64,000 bases of DNA, from NCBI GenBank assembly GCA_026225055.1, contig JAMFSA010000095.1, positions 62,001-126,000 of the forward strand, given 5' to 3'. Under the pieces are notes generated by a model, which saw only the letters and a program-made list of their open reading frames with translations, did not search any database and had not been told where the DNA came from. This DNA is from Mucilaginibacter xinganensis. GTDB lineage: Bacteria > Bacteroidota > Bacteroidia > Sphingobacteriales > Sphingobacteriaceae. Of the stretch, positions 31,444 to 41,725 are shown piece after piece. Within the stretch, counting starts at the first letter, position 1; the number at the start of each line of letters is the position of its first letter. The position numbers and the translations under genes were made by a program.

Positions 31444-33222
31444 TTACTTACGGACAATATAATTTTCAATTATCAGAACATCTATACCCGTATTTATAAA
31501 GCATTTAATCGCATCTTCCGGCGTGCATACAATGGGCTCGTCCATACGGTTAAACGAAGTATTGATCACCATGGGGCACCCGGTTAGATTATAAAAGGCA
31601 TTGATCAAATCATAAAAATCAGGGTGCTGTTCCCGGTTCACTGTTTGTAACCTTGCTGAATAATCAACATGTGTAACCGCCGGTATGGTTGATCTTATTT
31701 GCTTGAATTTTTCAAAACCCTCTGCCTCATCAGTAGGTTGATCTAATCGTTTTCCCTGCTTTACTTCGGCAACTAAAAGCATATACGGACTTGGCGTATC
31801 AAGATCAAAAAATTCAGCGGTATATTCTTCCAAAACAGCAGGGGCGAAGGGCCTGAACGACTCCCTGAACTTAATTTTCATATTCAACACTGACTGCATC
31901 TCAGGATTGCGTGGATCCGCGATTATACTGCGTGCGCCTAAAGCTCGCGGGCCAAATTCCATCCTGCCCTTAAAATAACCTATTACTTTTGCAGCTGCTA
32001 ATGCTTTGGCAATTTCCTGATTTAATTCATCTGTAGGCAATTCTTCAAATGCCAGTCCATGCTGTTCCATAGCGTCTATTATTTGAGCTGAATTATAAGC
32101 CGGGCCCAAAAGAGCGTTGTGCATCTGGTCGGTTTTGTTATCAGCTATACGTTCGTTATTGAGGTATTCATAATGCACGGCAAGGGCTGCGCCAAATGCT
32201 CCGCCAGCATCACCTGCTGCCGGCTGTATCCATATGTTTTTAAAGCCGGATTGCTTTAATATTTTGCCATTAGCTACACAATTTAATGCGACACCACCTG
32301 CAAGGCACAAATTATCTATTTGATGTTGCTGATATAAGCTTATGGTTGTCCGCAGCATTACCTGTTCGGTAACTTGCTGTACAGAGCTTGCCATATCCAT
32401 GTGAAAGGCTGAAATATCACCTCCCGGCTTGCGCGGCGGATTTTTAAAAAGCTGGTTAAAGCGATTGCCCGTCATAGTTAAACCGGTTCCATAATTAAAA
32501 TAATCCATGTTCAGCCGAAACGAACCATCTGCTTTAACATCTATCAATTCTTTAAATATCAGGTCGGCGTAAACGGGTTTGCCATAGGGGGCAAGGCCCA
32601 TCACCTTATACTCATCGCAATTAACCTTAAAACCAAGATAATATGTAAATGCCGAATACAGTAAACCCAGCGAATGCGGAAAGTTAATATGGCTGATCTT
32701 TTTGACTGTATTTTGCTTACCTATACTTACCGAGGCCGTTTCCCACTCCCCAACACCATCAACGGTTAAGACTACAGCCTCATTAAATGGCGATGGATAG
32801 AATGCCGAAGCCGCATGGGACTGGTGATGTGTTGTAAAAAGAAGATTGGTACCGTTATATTCCCAACTGCCGTCAATGAGTTTTAGACTTTTGATAAGCA
32901 TCCGCTTAAAAAAGAGCTTCTCCTTTAACCATATGGGCATTGCCTTTAAAAAAGAGTTGATGCCTTTAGGCGCAAAGGCCATATGGCTTTCAAGCAGCCG
33001 CTCAAACTTTAAAAAAGGCTTTTCGTAGTAAGCTATATGATCGACCTGATTTAGTGTGATACCAGCATATTCAAGGCAATATTTAATGCTGTTGGCAGGG
33101 AAAGCCGCATCATTTTTTATTCGGGTAAGACGCTCTTCCTGTACTGCCGCCAATATTTCACCATCCTTAAGCAAACAGGCCGCGCTGTCGTGATAATAGG
33201 CGGATATACCCAAAATGTACAT
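31444..33222 (-). CDS. Carbamoyltransferase (NodU/CmcH family)
   Basis: It transfers a carbamoyl group from carbamoyl phosphate to a hydroxyl of a sugar, polyketide or related molecule through an adenylated intermediate. The 592 residues have the two family domains: an N-terminal Kae1-like ASKHA domain with ISAYYHDSAACLL, the metal-binding HHQSHAASAFYPSPF and DGVGEW, LAGGVALNCVANG and FKGRMEFGPRALGARSI; and a C-terminal domain ending in NTSFNRMDEPIVCTPEDA. It lies 7 bp after the DUF5989 gene and after an SxtJ-like gene, a recurring three-gene module. The acceptor substrate is unknown. Confidence 0.93.
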   Translation of the reverse strand: MYILGISAYYHDSAACLLKDGEILAAVQEERLTRIKNDAAFPANSIKYCLEYAGITLNQVDHIAYYEKPFLKFERLLESHMAFAPKGINSFLKAMPIWLKEKLFFKRMLIKSLKLIDGSWEYNGTNLLFTTHHQSHAASAFYPSPFNEAVVLTVDGVGEWETASVSIGKQNTVKKISHINFPHSLGLLYSAFTYYLGFKVNCDEYKVMGLAPYGKPVYADLIFKELIDVKADGSFRLNMDYFNYGTGLTMTGNRFNQLFKNPPRKPGGDISAFHMDMASSVQQVTEQVMLRTTISLYQQHQIDNLCLAGGVALNCVANGKILKQSGFKNIWIQPAAGDAGGAFGAALAVHYEYLNNERIADNKTDQMHNALLGPAYNSAQIIDAMEQHGLAFEELPTDELNQEIAKALAAAKVIGYFKGRMEFGPRALGARSIIADPRNPEMQSVLNMKIKFRESFRPFAPAVLEEYTAEFFDLDTPSPYMLLVAEVKQGKRLDQPTDEAEGFEKFKQIRSTIPAVTHVDYSARLQTVNREQHPDFYDLINAFYNLTGCPMVINTSFNRMDEPIVCTPEDAIKCFINTGIDVLIIENYIVRK

Positions 33223-33229
33223 ATGCCCT

Positions 33230-33379
33230 TTAAAAAAGGGAATAGATAAAAGGCGCCAACGCAGAACCCTGTGCCACTACTAAAAATACCGCTAGTAATA
33301 TCAATATCATGCATAAGGGCCAAAGCCAGTAACGTTTGCGCTGTTTCAGAAATTGGAAAAATTCTGCCAGTAGGTCCAT
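33230..33379 (-). CDS. DUF5989-like small membrane protein (49 aa)
   Basis: This is a very short gene, easily missed. The ATG at 33379 opens 49 codons beginning MDLLAEFFQFLKQRKRYWLW and ending in AQGSALAPFIYSLF, with one strongly hydrophobic helix (about residues 20-36). Both the amphipathic, basic head and the GSALAPFIY tail match the small DUF5989 proteins that accompany NodU-type carbamoyltransferases and SxtJ. It sits 9 bp after sxtJ and 7 bp before the carbamoyltransferase, so position strongly supports it. The function is unknown; a membrane-anchoring helper for the transferase is a guess. Confidence 0.85.
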   Translation of the reverse strand: MDLLAEFFQFLKQRKRYWLWPLCMILILLAVFLVVAQGSALAPFIYSLF

Positions 33380-33388
33380 GCTTATAGT

Positions 33389-33778
33389 TTAAAATTGATT
33401 TTCCATTTTGCTTTCCTCAGTGACTGGGCTTATTTCCCAATAACTGATTTGGCTGTTTGATCTTTTTAGCTTTAATATATCCTTACCCAACAAGCGCATT
33501 ATCAGGCCCAGCGGGGTTAGTATCACACCGTAAAATAAACTTAATAATATATAAGTATTTATGATGCCCAGCACATGGCCAAGCTTGTCCCAACATAAGC
33601 GTAAAGGAGTGAGCCAGTAAGGTATCAACAAGGTAATTGCCAATAACATTACGGCTATTATGCCGATTACGTTATCCTGTTTATGTTTTAATAGTAAATG
33701 ATAAGCCGTAATAACCAGCAAAGCGATGGATACGGTGTACCCAAACTTTCTATTAAGTTTTATGGCTTCTTTATGCAT
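33389..33778 (-). CDS. SxtJ-family membrane protein
   Basis: The product has 129 residues with three to four hydrophobic helices (about 13-30, 36-52 and 68-92), including the family segment PLRLCWDKLGHVLGIINTYILLSLFYGVILTPLGL, and a short polar C-terminus. It resembles SxtJ, a small membrane protein named from saxitoxin clusters and found widely beside carbamoyltransferases. It leads the SxtJ / DUF5989 / carbamoyltransferase trio and lies 74 bp after the metallophosphoesterase gene, so the trio may have its own promoter. Function unknown. Confidence 0.8.
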   Translation of the reverse strand: MHKEAIKLNRKFGYTVSIALLVITAYHLLLKHKQDNVIGIIAVMLLAITLLIPYWLTPLRLCWDKLGHVLGIINTYILLSLFYGVILTPLGLIMRLLGKDILKLKRSNSQISYWEISPVTEESKMENQF

Positions 33779-33852
33779 TATAATCCAGGCTATTGGTGTG
33801 TCAACAAAAACCTAAATTAATAAAAATTAAGAAGGATTATAAAAATAAGTGT

Positions 33853-35130
33853 TTATTTAACAATATTAATCCATGGTTTATTGTCCACAGTTTTTAAACC
33901 GCTTGAATCGGGTACATCTATTGATCCTTTAATCTCTCCGGTTGTGGTATCTGCGGTCCATGATTCTGAAAAGAGTTTTCCGTTCACATCATAATAATCG
34001 ATCTCCAATTGTTCGTTTTTTAATGATGCGACGCAATACCCGTTATAACCTAAAGGATAATCATTAGTGCCCGGCTGTGGCCTTGTATCAACCATTACCA
34101 ATTTTGAATTACCATGACTGTTACTATTACGCTCAAAGGTATTCAGCTCTATGGGCATCCCGCCATGGCCTATACATCTTCCATACGCAGTAATGCCATC
34201 GTTTACCTGTACCTTTTCATATACGGAGAATTTATGTTCATGTCCCCAAATCCATAGCACAGGGCGGGTTTTACCAATGAGTTGGGCTAATTGTGTTGCC
34301 GGTACCAGGTATTCGCCTTCATCTTTAAAGGCAGTAACATATTGCTGATGTGTGAGGATGAGCAATCCCCGTTTGTCATTAGCATCATTAAGTTTCACAT
34401 CATCATAAAGCCATTGGATCAATTTTTTATCGAAATGAGAATCCGGCCCACATCCCGGCAGGAGCTCTATGATCGGAATTTTACCTATTGAATAATAGCC
34501 GGTATCTAAACCCAATATCCGCCAATGTTCATTCTCGAGACAGAAAAAGCCCGCTTTCTGGCCTGCATAATTACCGGTTTCATCTTTTAAACCTAAAGTG
34601 GGCAGTAGTCTTTTGAAAAAGGCAATCCCACGGGCATACATTTCATGGTTACCTAAAAGCGCGAAGCTACCCTTGCTACCTCTTATCCATGGTGAGCCGG
34701 GTTTGGTGAAATTTTGTTCGATCTCGTGAGGTGCGCCTACATAATAGGTATCACCCAAATGAATGGTATAGTCGGGGTTATGCTCCTCCATTTTGTTTGC
34801 TACCTCAAATGATTCAGTAGTATCTGTACCCCAGTCAGCTGCAATAGCGATGGTTACCGTATCCGTATCTGTGGGTTTGATATTGTAAATGCCTTTATCC
34901 GTGCCTGTATAAGTTGGGTATGGATAATTGCGCCCCAACCTGCTCGAAAAATAATAATAAAACCAGGTCCAAAGCCTTTTGGAAAGGAAATCGCCGATCT
35001 TATTAGCAGGTGTTTCATATTTTGATTTTTTAGTTTCGGTACGCAGGTGGTTCAACAGCGGACTATGCGTCATATCGAAATAATCATCCTGCGTTCGGTT
35101 GGGCTGTTTGTTTATATCTTGCTGGTCCAT
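33853..35130 (-). CDS. Calcineurin-like metallophosphoesterase
   Basis: This is a predicted dinuclear-metal phosphoesterase of 425 residues. Core motifs are present in order: IAADWGTD (the first Asp; the usual following His is replaced by Gly), HLGDTYY, LLGNHEMYARG, LLILTHQQYV and WIWGHEHKF. The C-terminal 110 residues form an extra beta-rich part. There is no signal peptide. It is the sixth gene of a compact minus-strand run, 12 bp after the GMC oxidoreductase. Family members cleave phosphomono- or diesters; the company of a patatin and a lipase-like hydrolase suggests a phospholipid or lipid-phosphate substrate, by inference only. Confidence 0.88.
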   Translation of the reverse strand: MDQQDINKQPNRTQDDYFDMTHSPLLNHLRTETKKSKYETPANKIGDFLSKRLWTWFYYYFSSRLGRNYPYPTYTGTDKGIYNIKPTDTDTVTIAIAADWGTDTTESFEVANKMEEHNPDYTIHLGDTYYVGAPHEIEQNFTKPGSPWIRGSKGSFALLGNHEMYARGIAFFKRLLPTLGLKDETGNYAGQKAGFFCLENEHWRILGLDTGYYSIGKIPIIELLPGCGPDSHFDKKLIQWLYDDVKLNDANDKRGLLILTHQQYVTAFKDEGEYLVPATQLAQLIGKTRPVLWIWGHEHKFSVYEKVQVNDGITAYGRCIGHGGMPIELNTFERNSNSHGNSKLVMVDTRPQPGTNDYPLGYNGYCVASLKNEQLEIDYYDVNGKLFSESWTADTTTGEIKGSIDVPDSSGLKTVDNKPWINIVK

Positions 35131-35142
35131 TAATAGTTACGA

Positions 35143-37476
35143 TTAAAAGAATTTCTTAAAATAAGTATCGATAAGTTCCTCGCTAAAGAACTTGGAGAAC
35201 GGCTCCATTGCCTTTATGGTTTCCATCATGCTGCTGGTATTCACTGTTTTCATGGTTGTCATTTGTGTGGCGAAATCCTGTGCTGCTATTTTTAAAATGC
35301 CCATTCCCAGTACATTGTTTTTGGTCGCATCTTCATAAATGGTTGTATAAAGTACCGTGGTATCATTCCACAGGTCAAATGGTGAATTGCCATCAACCTT
35401 TTTATACCCGTAGAAATAGAATTGTTTACCATCATGGGTATTAAGCGTCATGTTATATTTCATTTTCAGGTGATCGGGATTGTCGGCATCTTTTACAAAA
35501 AGATTAAACAGGCCATCGCTTACGGTTAAGGGCTTATCTGATAAAGCCGGGGCAACCACCGTTCCGCTCATATAACCTTTATGTTCAGGATCAGCAACAA
35601 AAATGTCCATGTCTTCGGTTTGAATAGTCAGCGTGAACAGGATAGGGGAGCAATGTTGTTCGCCTGCTGCATAACCGGCTTCAAAGTCCTCTTTTTCGCC
35701 CATGCTGAAATAACCTTTCATGGTTTCTGTAAACTGAACGGCGGGTGCAGGAGTAGTTAAATTGGAAACCACCGGAGGGAAATCATACGTTGTTTCAAGT
35801 CCCATATTTTTTATAATGATGTTACAGGCGCGTTCGGCAACTGCTGAGATGGTGAACAACGGATTGGTTCCTAATGGCAGCGGAACTATAGAGCCGTCCA
35901 GCACATATAAACCGGGATATGTGACCTGCCCGTCAGTGCCCGAGAATACATTGCCGATATCATTAGTTACGCCCAACGTAGCGTCCTCGCCCATGCTACA
36001 GCCGCCGAGGGGGTGTACAGTAACTAACTCATAATCTAATGTCTTTTCCCAAACCAGGTCTTTTATAAAAACGCCTCCTAAAGCAGCGGTGGCATCGGTC
36101 ATGGCTTGGTTTGCTTTTTGAAAAATAGCCTCTTTGCCAACGCCGGACCAATTAATAGAAAAATATCCATTATTTAAACTCATTACGCCGCTGCCATCAT
36201 CATGCGTCATAATTAAATAGGTTTGCGTATGGCTGGTAGCACCGTGATATGGCCCGCTGATCAAGCTTTTAGCTTCTTCACCGCAATCCCGTAACCAGTT
36301 GGAGAAGGTGCCGTTGGTGTTATGACCAATGGTCGCCGATAACGACATCAATGCCAGATTAAGTGCGGAAACAATAGGGGCAGGCACGCTTCCTTCTTCA
36401 AAAGTAAACCCATCATCCAGCACAGGCTGATTACGCATATCAATTACACTGGTAATGCAGGGGCCAACGGGTTCGTATTTGTCGTCGTTCCACAGTGTAC
36501 CTAATCCCATGCCATTAATGGGTTCTTCACAGTTATAGGCGAAGCCTAAAACATCCCCATTGCCAGTAAAATGATCGCCCAGTTTTGATGAAACTGATAA
36601 GCCATTTTGTTGTGATCGTAACAAAATCTCTGTACTGCCCAGCGCGCCTCCGGCAATTATTACATTGGCTGATCGTACAAACATTAACGGCGCCTTAAAT
36701 TTATCCCTGTCGTTACCAAAAACATCAAAATAGGTTATCCACTTATCGTCCGACTGCTCCACATGATCGACATTAATATTGCAGAATATCTCGGCCCCGT
36801 TGTTTACCGCATCGGGTAAGTAATTCATAATTAGGGTATTCTTGGCAAAGTGATTGCAGCCCGTAACGCAATCACCACAATTAACGCATTGATTTTGTTG
36901 AACCCCAACATGATTAATGCCTGTTTTAAATGATACATTGATATCCGTATAATAAAAAGGCTGGTTCATTTTCTCGGCAGAAAGTTGCATGGCTTTTGTT
37001 TTAGCCAGTTCAGGGTAACCGGGAGTGTTTGCCGGGTATTTTGCCGGTTTAAGCATATCCCAGGCTTTATCATAGCCATCCTGCAGGCTCGCTATATCAT
37101 TTCTTATAGCCGATGGCCATCTATCATCCAGAAATACGCGGTCCTCGGGTTTTATAGCAACGCCCGCATTAACCTGTGATGTGCCACCTAAGCCGCAACC
37201 TTTAAAAACGGAAATTCCTTGCCCCACATGGATATCATACAGCCCATTTTTATCAGCTTTACTAATGTCAGTGTTCAATTGCATTTCGGCTTCGGCTTCC
37301 ATTAAGGTAACCGGGTATTCACCGGGTTGAAATTCCTTACCTTTTTCAAGTAGGCAAACCTTTAGTCCTGCGCGTGAAAAACGACTGGCCGCAATGCTTC
37401 CGCCATAGCCGCTGCCTATAATTACTACATCATAAAAGGGTTTAAGATCAGTGATGGATTTTGATAATTTTCTCAT
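35143..37476 (-). CDS. GMC-family FAD oxidoreductase with Cys-cluster motif and C-terminal extension
   Basis: This is a flavoenzyme of the cholesterol-oxidase-like branch of GMC oxidoreductases. The FAD-binding GSGYGGSIAASRFSRAG lies near residues 21-37. VFKGCGLGGTSQVNAGV matches the GMC signature region, and HPLGGCSMG near residue 487 carries the active-site His. Residues about 195-210 contain C-x2-C-x2-C-x3-C (QCVNCGDCVTGCNHFAK), an iron-sulfur-like pattern. After the GMC core (about 560 residues) comes an extra domain of roughly 210 residues that I do not recognise. At 777 residues it is far longer than a plain GMC enzyme. It lies in an operon between a patatin (14 bp) and a metallophosphoesterase (12 bp). 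Confidence 0.88.
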   Translation of the reverse strand: MRKLSKSITDLKPFYDVVIIGSGYGGSIAASRFSRAGLKVCLLEKGKEFQPGEYPVTLMEAEAEMQLNTDISKADKNGLYDIHVGQGISVFKGCGLGGTSQVNAGVAIKPEDRVFLDDRWPSAIRNDIASLQDGYDKAWDMLKPAKYPANTPGYPELAKTKAMQLSAEKMNQPFYYTDINVSFKTGINHVGVQQNQCVNCGDCVTGCNHFAKNTLIMNYLPDAVNNGAEIFCNINVDHVEQSDDKWITYFDVFGNDRDKFKAPLMFVRSANVIIAGGALGSTEILLRSQQNGLSVSSKLGDHFTGNGDVLGFAYNCEEPINGMGLGTLWNDDKYEPVGPCITSVIDMRNQPVLDDGFTFEEGSVPAPIVSALNLALMSLSATIGHNTNGTFSNWLRDCGEEAKSLISGPYHGATSHTQTYLIMTHDDGSGVMSLNNGYFSINWSGVGKEAIFQKANQAMTDATAALGGVFIKDLVWEKTLDYELVTVHPLGGCSMGEDATLGVTNDIGNVFSGTDGQVTYPGLYVLDGSIVPLPLGTNPLFTISAVAERACNIIIKNMGLETTYDFPPVVSNLTTPAPAVQFTETMKGYFSMGEKEDFEAGYAAGEQHCSPILFTLTIQTEDMDIFVADPEHKGYMSGTVVAPALSDKPLTVSDGLFNLFVKDADNPDHLKMKYNMTLNTHDGKQFYFYGYKKVDGNSPFDLWNDTTVLYTTIYEDATKNNVLGMGILKIAAQDFATQMTTMKTVNTSSMMETIKAMEPFSKFFSEELIDTYFKKFF

Positions 37477-37490
37477 ATTAATTGTTTTTA

Positions 37491-38900
37491 TCAGGATAGT
37501 CCATTTAATAATTTCATTAATAATTTGTGTTTTAGCTTTATTTTTCCGTACCAGTTTGCCTGGGTGTTCACATTCAGGTAGTATGCATTTTTTATACGGT
37601 TTATTGCAGGTTGGCTCAACCGGGAGTCATCACCCGGCACTTCATTTGTGCCGATGCTTACAAGCGCTGTCTTGTTATCGATACCTATCAGCAGATCAAT
37701 AACCCCATGTAATTGCATGGTTATGTTTACCTGTTGGTTTATGCTGTCGCGATAAAATTCAAAGCTGGATGATAGTTTTCCTCCGTTATCAGCTCGGATA
37801 GTATTATTATAGCCGGAAATAAAATCACCCTGATCTATTGAAACAGATGAAAATTGCTGCAGGATATATTGATCGCCAATTTGCCGTATAAAAAATGATA
37901 GCTGTATAATAACCTCGCATACCTTGTTGCCAATAATTAGTTTACCCATAAACTGCTGCCTGAAATGCAGGCTCGCATCAACGGTAGTCATAGCTGTCGA
38001 TTTATATACCTCCTCGCTGCTATCGAATTTTTTATCAGTAGCTAAGTATTTTTTGGTATCAGCGTAGCCTATATTAATTAGCGTATCCGCATTTATCTTA
38101 TTGAACAGGAAATCAGGATCTAATGGCAGCGGATATTCAGGTTTAACAATATGCAGATCAATGGCTTTTAATCCTTTTTTTACTCTTTCTGCATTAATGT
38201 TCCTCAGCCATTCAATTTCATTATATACACCGCCATTCGAGCTGATTTCAATCATGTGTACATATTGATTAAAGGAGCCATCCAGGTATTTGCGGGTATT
38301 TCCTATAGCCCATATCAGCCATATTTCTTCAGCGCCTTTGCTTATCGCACCCAGCATATTGCAGTCTTTTATCCATACCGCGTCGGTATACCAGTTGTTG
38401 TTGATCTGTATGGCGGGCATAAGAATAGGGAGGGACATACCGGCAATCAAATGATCCTCCGTAACATCCTGCCCGGTAATAGATTCAATGGTTTTATTTG
38501 AAAAGTTACATAGGTTAAAAGTTGATTCCAGAATAGTATTCGCGTTTATTTTGCTTACATCGATACCCAGTGAAGGGAATATTTTTTTCCGGATGCCATC
38601 CGCGCTTCCTAATGAGGGCAGATCATTTGGATTACTGTAAGCCTTTAAGGGCATGGCGGTCATGAAACCTTTCAGATCCAGATTTCGCCACCTTACAGCA
38701 GTTTCTTTTGGGCTAATGCCCGATGCCAGCATAGCTGTGCCAAAAATACCCCCCGATGTGCCATCAACATGATTAAAATACAATCCAGCCTCTTCCAAAG
38801 CGATCAATACACCAGCATGGTAAGCCAACCGTACACCACCGCCCGCCAATATAAGAGAACGCTTAAGACTTGGGTTTGGTGATTGTATTTCCATTGGCAA
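37491..38900 (-). CDS. Patatin-like phospholipase
   Basis: This is a predicted Ser/Asp lipid acyl hydrolase. The oxyanion motif AGGGVRLAYHAG lies at residues 18-29, and the nucleophile serine is in GTSGGIFG (GxSxG) near residue 50. The catalytic-Asp region reads WYTDAVWIKD near 172 instead of the usual DGG/DGA, so the Asp is kept but its surroundings are altered. The patatin domain ends around 270; the remaining 200 residues are beta-rich and unassigned. There is no signal peptide. It lies in an operon with GMC oxidoreductase, ADC-like protein and alpha/beta hydrolase. Confidence 0.88.
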   Translation of the reverse strand: MPMEIQSPNPSLKRSLILAGGGVRLAYHAGVLIALEEAGLYFNHVDGTSGGIFGTAMLASGISPKETAVRWRNLDLKGFMTAMPLKAYSNPNDLPSLGSADGIRKKIFPSLGIDVSKINANTILESTFNLCNFSNKTIESITGQDVTEDHLIAGMSLPILMPAIQINNNWYTDAVWIKDCNMLGAISKGAEEIWLIWAIGNTRKYLDGSFNQYVHMIEISSNGGVYNEIEWLRNINAERVKKGLKAIDLHIVKPEYPLPLDPDFLFNKINADTLINIGYADTKKYLATDKKFDSSEEVYKSTAMTTVDASLHFRQQFMGKLIIGNKVCEVIIQLSFFIRQIGDQYILQQFSSVSIDQGDFISGYNNTIRADNGGKLSSSFEFYRDSINQQVNITMQLHGVIDLLIGIDNKTALVSIGTNEVPGDDSRLSQPAINRIKNAYYLNVNTQANWYGKIKLKHKLLMKLLNGLS

Positions 38901-38933
38901 TATTTCTGTTAATTATTTGGCCGGATATAATGA

Positions 38934-39323
38934 TTAGCTATAAGTTTCATCGGTTTTGAGGCATTTATAATAATAGATAATGAACACGCCCGAAAAGAAA
39001 TCGGTTAATGCAATACCGATGCTCAAATGATTAAAAATGCCGTGCAGTATGCCTATGCTAACCGCTGCGGCCGATGCGAATTTTTGTAAACCTGCCCATA
39101 ACATCAACACACTATTATCAGCAGCGCTGTATATGCCGTTGATAATTAAACCGCCAAAACAAACCATATACATGCCGATAGTTGCAAAAAGCTGGACAGT
39201 GGCAGGCGTACTCCCGATACCCACATTTTTTAATGCAAAAGCTGTGAAAACTAAGGGTATCACCCCTGAAAAAGTTGTGATAAACCCGATAATGAGCACA
39301 ATTAGCCTGATATGTTTTTTCAT
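38934..39323 (-). CDS. Four-TM small membrane protein
   Basis: I do not assign a family. From ATG 39323 the product has 129 residues and four hydrophobic helices (about 5-28, 43-62, 70-90 and 98-118), with short loops and a small polar tail. A longer reading frame from 39389 adds 22 polar residues overlapping the upstream gene and is less likely. It sits 33 bp before the patatin and 11 bp after the ADC-like gene. It could be a membrane tether or transport helper for the pathway; this is a guess from position. Confidence 0.7.
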   Translation of the reverse strand: MKKHIRLIVLIIGFITTFSGVIPLVFTAFALKNVGIGSTPATVQLFATIGMYMVCFGGLIINGIYSAADNSVLMLWAGLQKFASAAAVSIGILHGIFNHLSIGIALTDFFSGVFIIYYYKCLKTDETYS

Positions 39324-39333
39324 TGGAGTGGGT

Positions 39334-40224
39334 TTATATTTTAAATTGTTGGTAATCGGTAATACTTGGCGCCGGTAGCCAGTCTTCACCCAAGCCGAGG
39401 TTAATTACGCTTGCAAAGCCTTCGGGGGTCACCTTTTCGGGCTTGTCTTTATAGGTCATAAACCAACATTCAAAATGATCGTCCAATATCCCGTTGGCGT
39501 TAGGCATAAATGCGGTAAAAAGTGGTTTGCTTTCAATCTCCAGATCGCGCATATAGCCGGTACGTTTATGATCGCCAATGAATAAGCTGCCTTTAGCCTT
39601 TTTACCCAGGTTTATACCTGCTTTGGCCTTAAAATAAATATTGGATGCCATCAGCATGTTACGGAAATGACTGTAATTTACCGTGCCCACATTAAGCGGA
39701 AAATTGCTTTTAGCCGGTTTATCAATTTCTATCCTGAAAGCAAAATGCCCATCCAGTTCATATTGGGCTGATACTTTATCATCGGTGATAATAAAATCGA
39801 GATTGGCTTTATGCTTGGGCATTCCCCAGATGCCTTTGCCGCCTTTAACTGATATTTCAGAACTCACGGGCAATTCAAGTATATACTGGCCGGTATGGTA
39901 ATAGTTCATGAATACGGCGGGCAACATCCTCGGTGCGGGTTTTGCTCCCCGGGTACAGGCTATGGCAATGCTATATTCAATATACTTGCCAATATTGGTG
40001 TGCAGGTAATTGATAACGGTAACCATAAATATGGCTTTGCCATTCAGGTATTTTACCGCATGCAGTTCGTTACCGGGCAGTAGTGCGTTAGCTTTATCAT
40101 AATCGCATAAAAAAGCTGCCATTAACGCCGGGGAGTTTTCGGTAGCTACCGGCATGGTGAACGGTACATTATCAACCAAAGCATAGCGCCCGGTATAATT
40201 TTTAATTCGTTGAGGTATGCCCAT
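39334..40224 (-). CDS. Acetoacetate decarboxylase-like protein
   Basis: The 296 residues have the ADC fold signature: VNYLHTNIGKYIEYSIAIAC, the beta-cone region, and GIWGMPKHKANLDF near residue 130-143. In acetoacetate decarboxylase the Schiff-base Lys is followed by a second Lys (PKK); here the pair reads PKHK, so the first Lys is kept and the second is His. The gene lies 11 bp after the alpha/beta hydrolase and 11 bp before the 4-TM gene. Many ADC-superfamily proteins are not decarboxylases but hydrolase- or aldolase-dehydratase-like, so the reaction is uncertain. Confidence 0.8.
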   Translation of the reverse strand: MGIPQRIKNYTGRYALVDNVPFTMPVATENSPALMAAFLCDYDKANALLPGNELHAVKYLNGKAIFMVTVINYLHTNIGKYIEYSIAIACTRGAKPAPRMLPAVFMNYYHTGQYILELPVSSEISVKGGKGIWGMPKHKANLDFIITDDKVSAQYELDGHFAFRIEIDKPAKSNFPLNVGTVNYSHFRNMLMASNIYFKAKAGINLGKKAKGSLFIGDHKRTGYMRDLEIESKPLFTAFMPNANGILDDHFECWFMTYKDKPEKVTPEGFASVINLGLGEDWLPAPSITDYQQFKI

Positions 40225-40234
40225 AGTAATTGGT

Positions 40235-41242
40235 TTAGTTGTTTAATTCATAAATCATTGCCGGGAAAATATCGGTGTATGCATCCTTTCCCATAAAAAT
40301 ATCCAGGTGACTGTACGTGTCAAAAACATATAGCTTATGGTAATCAGGACGATAGGAGTTGAAATAATTGTAAGTGTTTACCTGGCTTTCGTAGGAAAAG
40401 CATTTATTAAGCCTTCCGGCGAAAAATGCGAAGCGGGCCTGTGTTGCCGGTTTATCAGCAGCGTAATTGGTTTTACCATCTGCTGATACCAGCGTACCAG
40501 CGGCGATACATTTGATGATATGATCAAAAAACGACATCGGCACATAACCAAACTCTCCCCGTATCCAGTTTTTAGTTTCATCGGATAAATTATCCAGTTC
40601 CCACAAAGCCGGGTGACCAACGCCATAGGTGAAACTTACAAACTTGCCTACGTCGGTATCATTTTCCCAATGTGTTAATTTCACAAGCGAGCGGAATAGT
40701 TTTGCCTTAAAGTCGGGCGCGTCATCTCCCCAATGCGGGTTGAGATAGCTCGTTATCAATTTAACCACCGGAACCAAGCTCCTTAATTTAAACCCTGATG
40801 CACCCGATACCACAGGATGCAGCGAAACCGCGTTACTTACAATAGTGGTAACCTGCGGCACCAATCCTTTTAAAACCGAGATCATAAAACTTGTTGAGCC
40901 CTGGCAATGGATAACAGCCTTTATAGTTTCATGACCGGTAAGCCTACATATTTCCTGTACAGCGGCCGGGTGATCGTTATCCGCAACTACGTCGAGGTTC
41001 CATTCGTTAGGGGTGCAGAGCATGCTGCCGCGCCAGTTTTCGAGCCAGACATCATAGCCATCTTCGGATAGGGAATCCAGTATGTTTTTGTCATTAGGTG
41101 CATTAAATACATTGCTTTTTACACCTGCCCCATGCACAAGCAACACAGGCCCTTTTGGTGTTGGCCTGTCGGTTTTTAATCGCCATAAGTTGCATTTAAA
41201 ACCGTCGAATGAAGTAAATGGGTATAGGTCGAACTGATGCAC
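40235..41242 (-). CDS. Alpha/beta-fold hydrolase with Cys at the nucleophile elbow
   Basis: This is the first gene of the minus-strand lipid-type operon. The 335 residues show a lipase-like N-terminal half: LLVHGAGVKSNVF near 35-47 (oxyanion HG), YDVWLENWRGS, and the nucleophile elbow IHCQGS at 111-116. The elbow places Cys113 where Ser is usual (GxSxG). A plausible catalytic His is in DTYSHLDIFMG near the C-terminus. There is no signal peptide. Cys nucleophiles are known in dienelactone hydrolase, but the rest resembles lipid/sterol-ester-type hydrolases. The promoter should lie in the AT-rich stretch upstream. Confidence 0.83.
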   Translation of the reverse strand: MHQFDLYPFTSFDGFKCNLWRLKTDRPTPKGPVLLVHGAGVKSNVFNAPNDKNILDSLSEDGYDVWLENWRGSMLCTPNEWNLDVVADNDHPAAVQEICRLTGHETIKAVIHCQGSTSFMISVLKGLVPQVTTIVSNAVSLHPVVSGASGFKLRSLVPVVKLITSYLNPHWGDDAPDFKAKLFRSLVKLTHWENDTDVGKFVSFTYGVGHPALWELDNLSDETKNWIRGEFGYVPMSFFDHIIKCIAAGTLVSADGKTNYAADKPATQARFAFFAGRLNKCFSYESQVNTYNYFNSYRPDYHKLYVFDTYSHLDIFMGKDAYTDIFPAMIYELNN

Positions 41243-41725
41243 GGTAAAATAATTTAAAATCAGTAAATAATTTCAATTCTTTAAAAAACAGTACAGCAAA
41301 TTATAGTATAAGGTAGTTTATAGTTAAGGTTGTGATGGTGCGGTAAATAACAGATATAGATGTAAGATGCTTATTACTAATCTGTTTTATTTAAAAGTAT
41401 ATATTATTTGGTAAAATATCAACAATGTAAATTAAATAATAATTAAAAGTGGGGTAATTGGCAGGAAAGTGTTCTTTTTTAGAGCGAAAAGGTGCTTTTA
41501 GACAGTAGCATGTCGACGAGCTTGACTCACCCCGACTTCGCTACGCTGGTCGTCCCTCTCTACGCTAAAGCGTAAAGAGGGATGAAAAAATAAATAAATG
41601 AAATGAGCTTCGCCCCCTTTGCCGCTTGCGGCAGAGAGGGCGGGTCGAGCGGCTGAGCGATGACCGGGTGAGTCAACTATGGAAGCGGTGATTGTAATAA
41701 TTGCAAGCGTCGATAAATATTAACC
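41243..41725. other. Intergenic region with BIME/MITE-like doublet
   Basis: No gene is visible in this 483-bp gap. The part near 41243-41460 is very AT-rich and should carry the promoter of the minus-strand operon. The part from 41520 to 41680 is GC-richer and highly structured, and is described separately as a repeat element. Confidence 0.6.
41522..41676. repeat. Palindromic repeat doublet (BIME/MITE-like)
   Basis: The element is bounded by perfect 11-bp inverted ends, TTGACTCACCC (41522-41532) and GGGTGAGTCAA (41666-41676). Inside are two hairpins: 41554-41581 (CCCTCTCTACGC-TAAA-GCGTAAAGAGGG, one mismatch) and 41613-41640 (CCCCCTTTGCCGC-TT-GCGGCAGAGAGGG, two mismatches). Read in opposite directions, the two halves are diverged copies of one unit: TTGACTCACCC, about 20 bases, then a CCCTCTCT hairpin. 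This is the layout of REP doublets or of a small non-coding transposable element. Its GC content contrasts with the flanks. No second copy is in the window. Confidence 0.7.

Follow-up and report, generated by a model that had tools for sequence, protein, structure and literature searches.

What common task could unite a cholesterol-oxidase-type flavoenzyme, a lipase-like hydrolase with a cysteine nucleophile, a protein predicted to have the acetoacetate decarboxylase fold and a metallophosphoesterase is the question raised by a locus of Mucilaginibacter xinganensis (contig JAMFSA010000095.1 of assembly GCA_026225055.1, positions 62,001 to 126,000; this whole stretch of 64,000 nucleotides is called here the window). 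The genes of these four proteins (GMC, ABH, ADC and MPE, respectively for the flavoenzyme, the hydrolase, the decarboxylase-fold protein and the phosphoesterase), which are the core of the cassette, lie there together with those of a small predicted membrane protein (TM4) and a patatin-like acyl hydrolase (PAT), and the six open reading frames (ORFs) are adjacent on the minus strand (33853..41242). Comparisons with other genomes indicate that the ABH-ADC-GMC-phosphoesterase neighbourhood is very probably one conserved and rare unit. Concerning its function, we infer, with a probability of roughly 35%, that the cassette takes a hydroxylated lipid apart stepwise to a ketone; this applies to the reactions, their order and the substrate alike.

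Conservation and rarity of the gene neighbourhood

Twenty loci (the window and 19 others) were annotated using profiles built from the six window proteins and from the extra genes of their relatives. Nine of the loci come from the 89 plasmid records with a GMC match, 40 of which were listed (NZ_AP024648, H15, H16, H17, H18, H20, H21, H24 and H25); H19, H23 and H26 to H31 were left out as near copies or members of the same genus, and the remainder scored lower. An ADC-type gene is present in nine of the 20 loci. Eight belong to Bacteroidota: the window, Mucilaginibacter sp. X5P1 (L031), G672 (L058), Pedobacter sp. L105 (L032), G122 (L039), G528 (L059), G266 (L040) and G179 (L041). The ninth lies on a 1.35-Mb plasmid of the actinomycetote Arthrobacter sp. 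StoSoilB13 (L045). The nearest named locus is that of X5P1, whose GMC is 94% identical to the window protein; L031 and L058 share 91% DNA identity. In all nine clusters ABH adjoins ADC on the same strand and both GMC and a metallophosphoesterase gene are present, the latter being of the window's kind in three, of a larger kind in five and of a third kind in L041, assigned by motifs alone (DLH, GD, GNHD, GHTH) and lying under the Pfam cut-offs. TM4 and the patatin occur in seven of the nine loci, the window included. Two further membrane proteins are found in some clusters: TMa in six of the nine (the cut-off of Pfam Anthrone_oxy is passed in two of the three tested) and TMb in four (DUF4345, cut-off passed in both of the two tested). 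Arthrobacter and Pedobacter share the order of the block ABH-ADC-TMa-TM4-PAT, into which TMb is inserted in Pedobacter; GMC and the phosphoesterase are placed at either end of it.

The cluster is rare. The ADC gene was found in four of 395 genomes of the phylum at E <= 1e-100 and in six at E <= 1e-3, where two weak matches (8.2e-6 and 5.6e-4) are what we take for remote family members; within the family, four of 301 genomes carry it at E <= 1e-20. This type of patatin appears in four of 296 phylum genomes (E <= 1e-30) and GMC in seven of 395 (E <= 1e-60). The four genomes with ADC are the four with the patatin (G000, G122, G179 and G266, from three families) and all are among the seven with GMC, in counts uncorrected for kinship. 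This rarity, the copy in Arthrobacter and the plasmid-borne fusions described below suggest that the cassette has spread laterally.

The original prediction had regarded the genes as one unit and proposed to look for synteny in other genomes and for natural fusions; both were found, synteny in two phyla and fusions among GMC, hydrolase and phosphoesterase, and the unit is not refuted. All six genes together do not make up the conserved set, since L031 and L058 lack TM4 and the patatin and others have one or two extra membrane genes and a different phosphoesterase. It had also stated that no pathway with this gene set had been described. This agrees with the open-access literature, where no paper describing the set was found (subscription papers and preprints lie outside this scope). 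In one study, a GMC oxidoreductase of Collimonas is the enzyme converting glucose to gluconate, and a patatin is mentioned apart from it (PMC12542777). Database records label the members singly, for example as "cholesterol oxidase" or "alpha/beta fold hydrolase".

Table 1 Features of the operon in the window
Feature	Position	Strand	Description
ABH	40235..41242	-	alpha/beta hydrolase, Cys113 at nucleophile position (HCQGS), His312; acid-lipase-like profile
ADC	39334..40224	-	acetoacetate-decarboxylase-fold protein (predicted), Lys137 in GMPKH
TM4	38934..39323	-	small predicted membrane protein, 129 residues from ATG 39323
PAT	37491..38900	-	patatin-like acyl hydrolase, Ser49 in GTSGG, Asp173
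GMC	35143..37476	-	cholesterol-oxidase-type FAD enzyme; core 1-565, Cys197/200/203/207, His488, Asn538; tail 566-777
GMC tail domain	35146..35781	-	212 residues, predicted beta-barrel, no Pfam family
MPE	33853..35130	-	calcineurin-like metallophosphoesterase; DWG, GDTYY, GNHE, H, GHEH motifs

Layout of the operon

The six tightly spaced ORFs of the original prediction are all found in their places. The intergenic gaps range from 10 to 39 nucleotides depending on the choice of start codons: 10 between ABH and ADC (read from the sequence), 10 between ADC and TM4 if the latter starts at ATG 39323 (the listed GTG 39389 would overlap ADC), 33 or 39 between TM4 and PAT with respectively TTG 38900 or ATG 38894 as the PAT start, 14 between PAT and GMC, and 12 between GMC and MPE. 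A consensus scan, which is noisy (16 sites over both strands where 8.0 are expected), gives six terminator-like sites on the minus strand, and none of them falls between the operon genes. The Pfam cut-offs of Abhydrolase_1, ADC, Patatin, GMC_oxred_N/C and Metallophos are passed; TM4 has no family in the Pfam scan.

Fusions and the shared tail domain

The other 11 loci contain a GMC relative without an ADC of this type. In seven of them GMC, its tail and ABH make up one ORF of 1134 to 1251 residues: G092 (L042), Bernardetia (L046), Leptospira borgpetersenii (L047), Azospirillum oryzae (L048), Rhizobium leguminosarum (L049), Variovorax paradoxus (L051) and Persicobacter (L052). The larger phosphoesterase stands directly upstream of the fusion in G092 and Azospirillum. 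In Ensifer (L053), a single ORF of 1918 residues (annotated as 1908) unites GMC, ABH and a PhoD-type phosphoesterase; seven plasmid records of this genus, counting its own, match it over at least 99% of its length, in one case as two pieces, and it has no recognised tail. Pseudonocardia (L050) has GMC, tail and ABH as three ORFs. With the PhoD-type domain, the phosphoesterases of these loci take at least four forms. Two genes look irregular. The fusion on the Leptospira plasmid is followed by fragments of another GMC gene (L047:8956-10523), and the Arthrobacter phosphoesterase (L045:18025-20128) spans two reading frames of the plasmid record, which would mean a damaged gene or a sequencing error.

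The tail of GMC links three classes of enzymes. Its model (predicted local distance difference test, pLDDT, of 93.1) is rich in beta-strands and resembles small beta-barrels in a general way, with weak fold matches. In L040, the last 200 residues of the patatin match GMC residues 566-772 (30% identity, 6e-26). A database search with the tail region gave 193 matches. Of the 120 listed, 108 have a Patatin domain (from Balneolaceae, Xenococcus, Chloroflexota, Nitrospiria and Paraglaciecola, among others), P0231 a GMC domain and P0163 an Abhydrolase domain. Ten of the listed proteins are devoid of a Pfam domain, among them P0200, which reads as a hydrolase with a tail. By eye, the Chloroflexota patatin P0148 seems to carry two tails. 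P0215 of Paraglaciecola arctica has an ABH-like start followed by a patatin with a tail, and from its sequence it looks like a deletion product joining two neighbouring genes. Among the patatins of the seven ADC loci that have one, the tail is clear in L040 and L041 and partial in Arthrobacter (1e-4); it was not recognised in the other four, the window's included, where an hhalign comparison of the PAT C-terminus with the tail failed. This domain would help annotators to find further members.

Two similar-looking proteins also lie near GMC genes, L039:6763-7914 (383 residues) and L056:3365-4447 (360 residues); they have no Pfam family and share, by eye, the pattern PAF.ML..SPS...PSTP.

Characteristics of the individual enzymes

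The best PDB matches of GMC are cholesterol oxidases. The FAD fold is recognised by sequence match, and His488 and Asn538 align with the HPLGG and NPF motifs of 4u2l, which hold the active-site His/Asn pair of cholesterol oxidase. The relationship to these oxidases (4u2l/1b4v) is nevertheless distant (4e-19). GMC has a predicted beta-barrel tail and a run of four cysteines absent from the aligned oxidases, and it scores 151 bits against the cholesterol oxidase equivalog NF058674, whose cut-off is 850. The four cysteines, His488 and Asn538 are present in 117/117 aligned GMC sequences; this count uses 116 of the 120 listed proteins, four shorter than 740 residues having been left out. From each of the three database searches (5873, 193 and 2568 matches), 120 matches were listed.

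ABH matches the profiles of gastric lipase (8.7e-13), lysosomal acid lipase (1.3e-10) and PHA synthase (4.7e-5). The likeness to the acid lipases extends across the nucleophile elbow and the region of the catalytic His, but the nucleophile Ser of these lipases is replaced by a Cys in 14/14 aligned sequences, all of which also keep the catalytic-position His, and ABH is often fused to GMC. A Cys nucleophile within an alpha/beta hydrolase fold is known from the PHA synthase PhaC. That profile match is weak, and the class I and class III synthase models give ABH 13.9 and 20 bits (NCBIfam cut-offs of 622.65 and 365.3).

The ADC protein scores 51.6 bits against Acetoacetate decarboxylase PF06314 (cut-off 29.8). 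Lys137, which we take to be the equivalent of the Schiff-base lysine K115 of clostridial ADC, is kept in 120/120 relatives among the matches listed and in a Moraxella ADC-family protein; H56 and H57 were retrieved solely as outside members of the family. The structure model, which shows the predicted ADC fold, is weakest in this region. Structural alignments with ADC and with aldolase-dehydratases of this fold (MppR and a Streptomyces bingchenggensis enzyme) show 12 to 17% identity, the window protein differing from them by the His that follows its Lys and by about 40 extra C-terminal residues that the match does not cover.

MPE passes the Metallophos PF00149 cut-off (39.5 bits against 21.5), and its metal-site motifs are kept in four aligned sequences, including those of L031, L058 and L056, the last having DWA for DWG. 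PAT scores 69 bits against Patatin PF01734 (cut-off 27.7) and has the GGGxR motif and the Ser/Asp dyad of patatins: Gly20-22, Ser49 and Asp173 are invariant in 13 aligned rows.

Proposed function and rival explanations

Synteny in two phyla, fusions and a shared tail imply that the flavoenzyme, the Cys-hydrolase, the phosphoesterase, the patatin and the ADC-fold protein serve one pathway. The original prediction proposed a lipid or terpenoid as its substrate, a plausible candidate. Breakdown or remodelling is likelier than synthesis, given that the set combines hydrolases with a flavoenzyme that oxidises alcohols and a decarboxylase-fold protein, and that its genes leave no space between them for a synthase or ligase (the flanks were not screened systematically). 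In the sequence of reactions that we propose, the phosphoesterase would remove a phosphate or head group, the Cys-hydrolase and, where present, the patatin would cleave acyl esters or thioesters or act as acyltransferases, and GMC, using its His/Asn pair, would convert a secondary alcohol into a ketone. The electrons would then leave by way of the four-Cys site and its putative Fe-S cluster. If the alcohol were beta to an ester or thioester, the acid freed after its oxidation would be a beta-keto acid, the classical substrate of ADC, which the ADC-fold protein would decarboxylate through a likely Schiff base on Lys137. Such a route would link GMC, ABH and ADC in one line and leave the remainder of the lipid to the patatin and the phosphoesterase. 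The barrel on GMC, related patatins and related hydrolases may hold a common lipid or hold the enzymes together. In the methyl ketone synthase pair MKS1/MKS2 of tomato, a thioester is cleaved and the beta-keto acid is then decarboxylated; the logic is alike, but that decarboxylase belongs to an unrelated family and GMC, patatin and phosphoesterase have no known counterpart there. A more far-reaching version is that of a laterally spread metabolon in which three enzymes share a lipid-holding barrel, GMC, Cys-hydrolase and phosphoesterase work as one unit, at least four kinds of phosphoesterase were recruited to one step and the ADC-fold enzyme makes a ketone from a phospholipid-borne hydroxy-acyl group; taken as a whole, it is doubtful.

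Several observations weigh against the stepwise conversion of a lipid to a ketone. Lys137 is followed by His, whereas in classical ADC a second Lys comes directly after the Schiff-base Lys; the reaction may therefore not be a decarboxylation. All Fer4 profiles stay under their cut-offs for GMC (best Fer4_6, 17.5 bits against 25), the Arthrobacter GMC has three of the four cysteines and the GMC of L041 has no recognised tail. L031 and L058, the loci closest to the window, have neither TM4 nor the patatin. The loci with fused GMC::ABH lack ADC and patatin, and in five of the seven neither phosphoesterase profile matched within the stretch examined, so that the core reaction need not involve ADC, the patatin or always a neighbouring phosphoesterase. 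Finally, two Bacteroidota loci have a tail-less GMC (L056:10908-12446 and L057:286-1923) beside a gene resembling D-arabinono-1,4-lactone oxidase, a sugar-lactone-oxidase-like protein, which means that some GMC relatives work in another setting. These genes are possibly a second conserved pair; L056 also has a window-type phosphoesterase and L057 a weakly matching hydrolase.

Other scenarios may be considered. One is a sterol or triterpenoid module, in which the Cys-lipase would release a steryl or terpenyl ester, GMC would oxidise its 3-hydroxyl and the ADC-fold protein would remove a carboxylate beta to the ketone. It is favoured by the best PDB matches: cholesterol oxidases, which share the His/Asn pair, for GMC, and gastric lipase and lysosomal acid lipase/cholesteryl ester hydrolase for ABH. 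Yet GMC is far under the cholesterol oxidase cut-off, neither of the two markers tried (hopene cyclase and 3-oxosteroid dehydrogenase) is over its cut-off in any of nine genomes, with a partial cyclase match below the cut-off in three, and the phosphoesterase is left unexplained, which makes this module unlikely. Rather less likely still is a biosynthetic cluster whose genes tailor a natural product resembling a lipid, with the additional membrane proteins acting on an aromatic or quinone intermediate: in its favour are the patchy distribution, the Anthrone_oxy matches of TMa (2.2e-6 and 3.7e-6 in the two that pass) and the biosynthetic aldolase-dehydratases among the ADC-fold relatives, but TMa and TMb are absent from the window cluster, and the members stand end to end in the nine ADC clusters with no space for a synthase or carrier gene between them (again with flanks not screened systematically). 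The patchiness and the plasmid-borne relatives could also be those of a cassette for attack or defence, whose genes travel together because the patatin and its partners break down lipids in the membranes of competitors or in those of the infected cell. We consider this very improbable: the patatin is dispensable in L031 and L058, and its weak match to a PADLOC "Effector" model (8.4e-3) is the sole one at E <= 0.01 among the six proteins scanned.

The stepwise breakdown of a hydroxylated lipid is thus retained as the preferred reading. If the members serve one pathway, assays of one fused protein, either that of Ensifer or one of the GMC::ABH type, might be enough to learn the function of the whole set.

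Absence of TM4 and patatin in close relatives

The window and X5P1 are 84.8% identical over 3660 bases (33870-37526) and 83.6% over 2343 bases (39333-41651). Between the two aligned blocks there are 5 bases in X5P1 against 1806 in the window, which span TM4 and PAT minus its last 36 bases. A stub of the patatin-gene end persists between ADC and GMC in L031 (L031:9951-10000) and likewise before the GMC of L058: the 50 bases preceding the GMC start are identical to the window at 38 positions in both, stop codon included. Since Pedobacter and others carry TM4 and PAT, a deletion that left the stub would be the simpler reading.

Surroundings of the operon

On the same strand, 74 nucleotides beyond the operon, Pfam matches identify a NodU-like carbamoyltransferase and an SxtJ-family membrane protein (31444-33778). 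They seem to be chance neighbours, as they have no match in L031 and are not apparent in the ORF list of L058. A 12/12 match to TTGACA-16-TATAAT (33777-33804, minus strand) reaches the start codon of the SxtJ-like gene; Bacteroidota normally use another promoter type. Upstream of the operon lies a repetitive extragenic palindromic (REP)-like element (41515-41685) with imperfect 40-nucleotide inverted arms (41522-41561 and 41637-41676, 75% complementary). The region 41500-41700 has no match in the plasmid collection, and the element has 69 matches in the host genome, its own copy counted.
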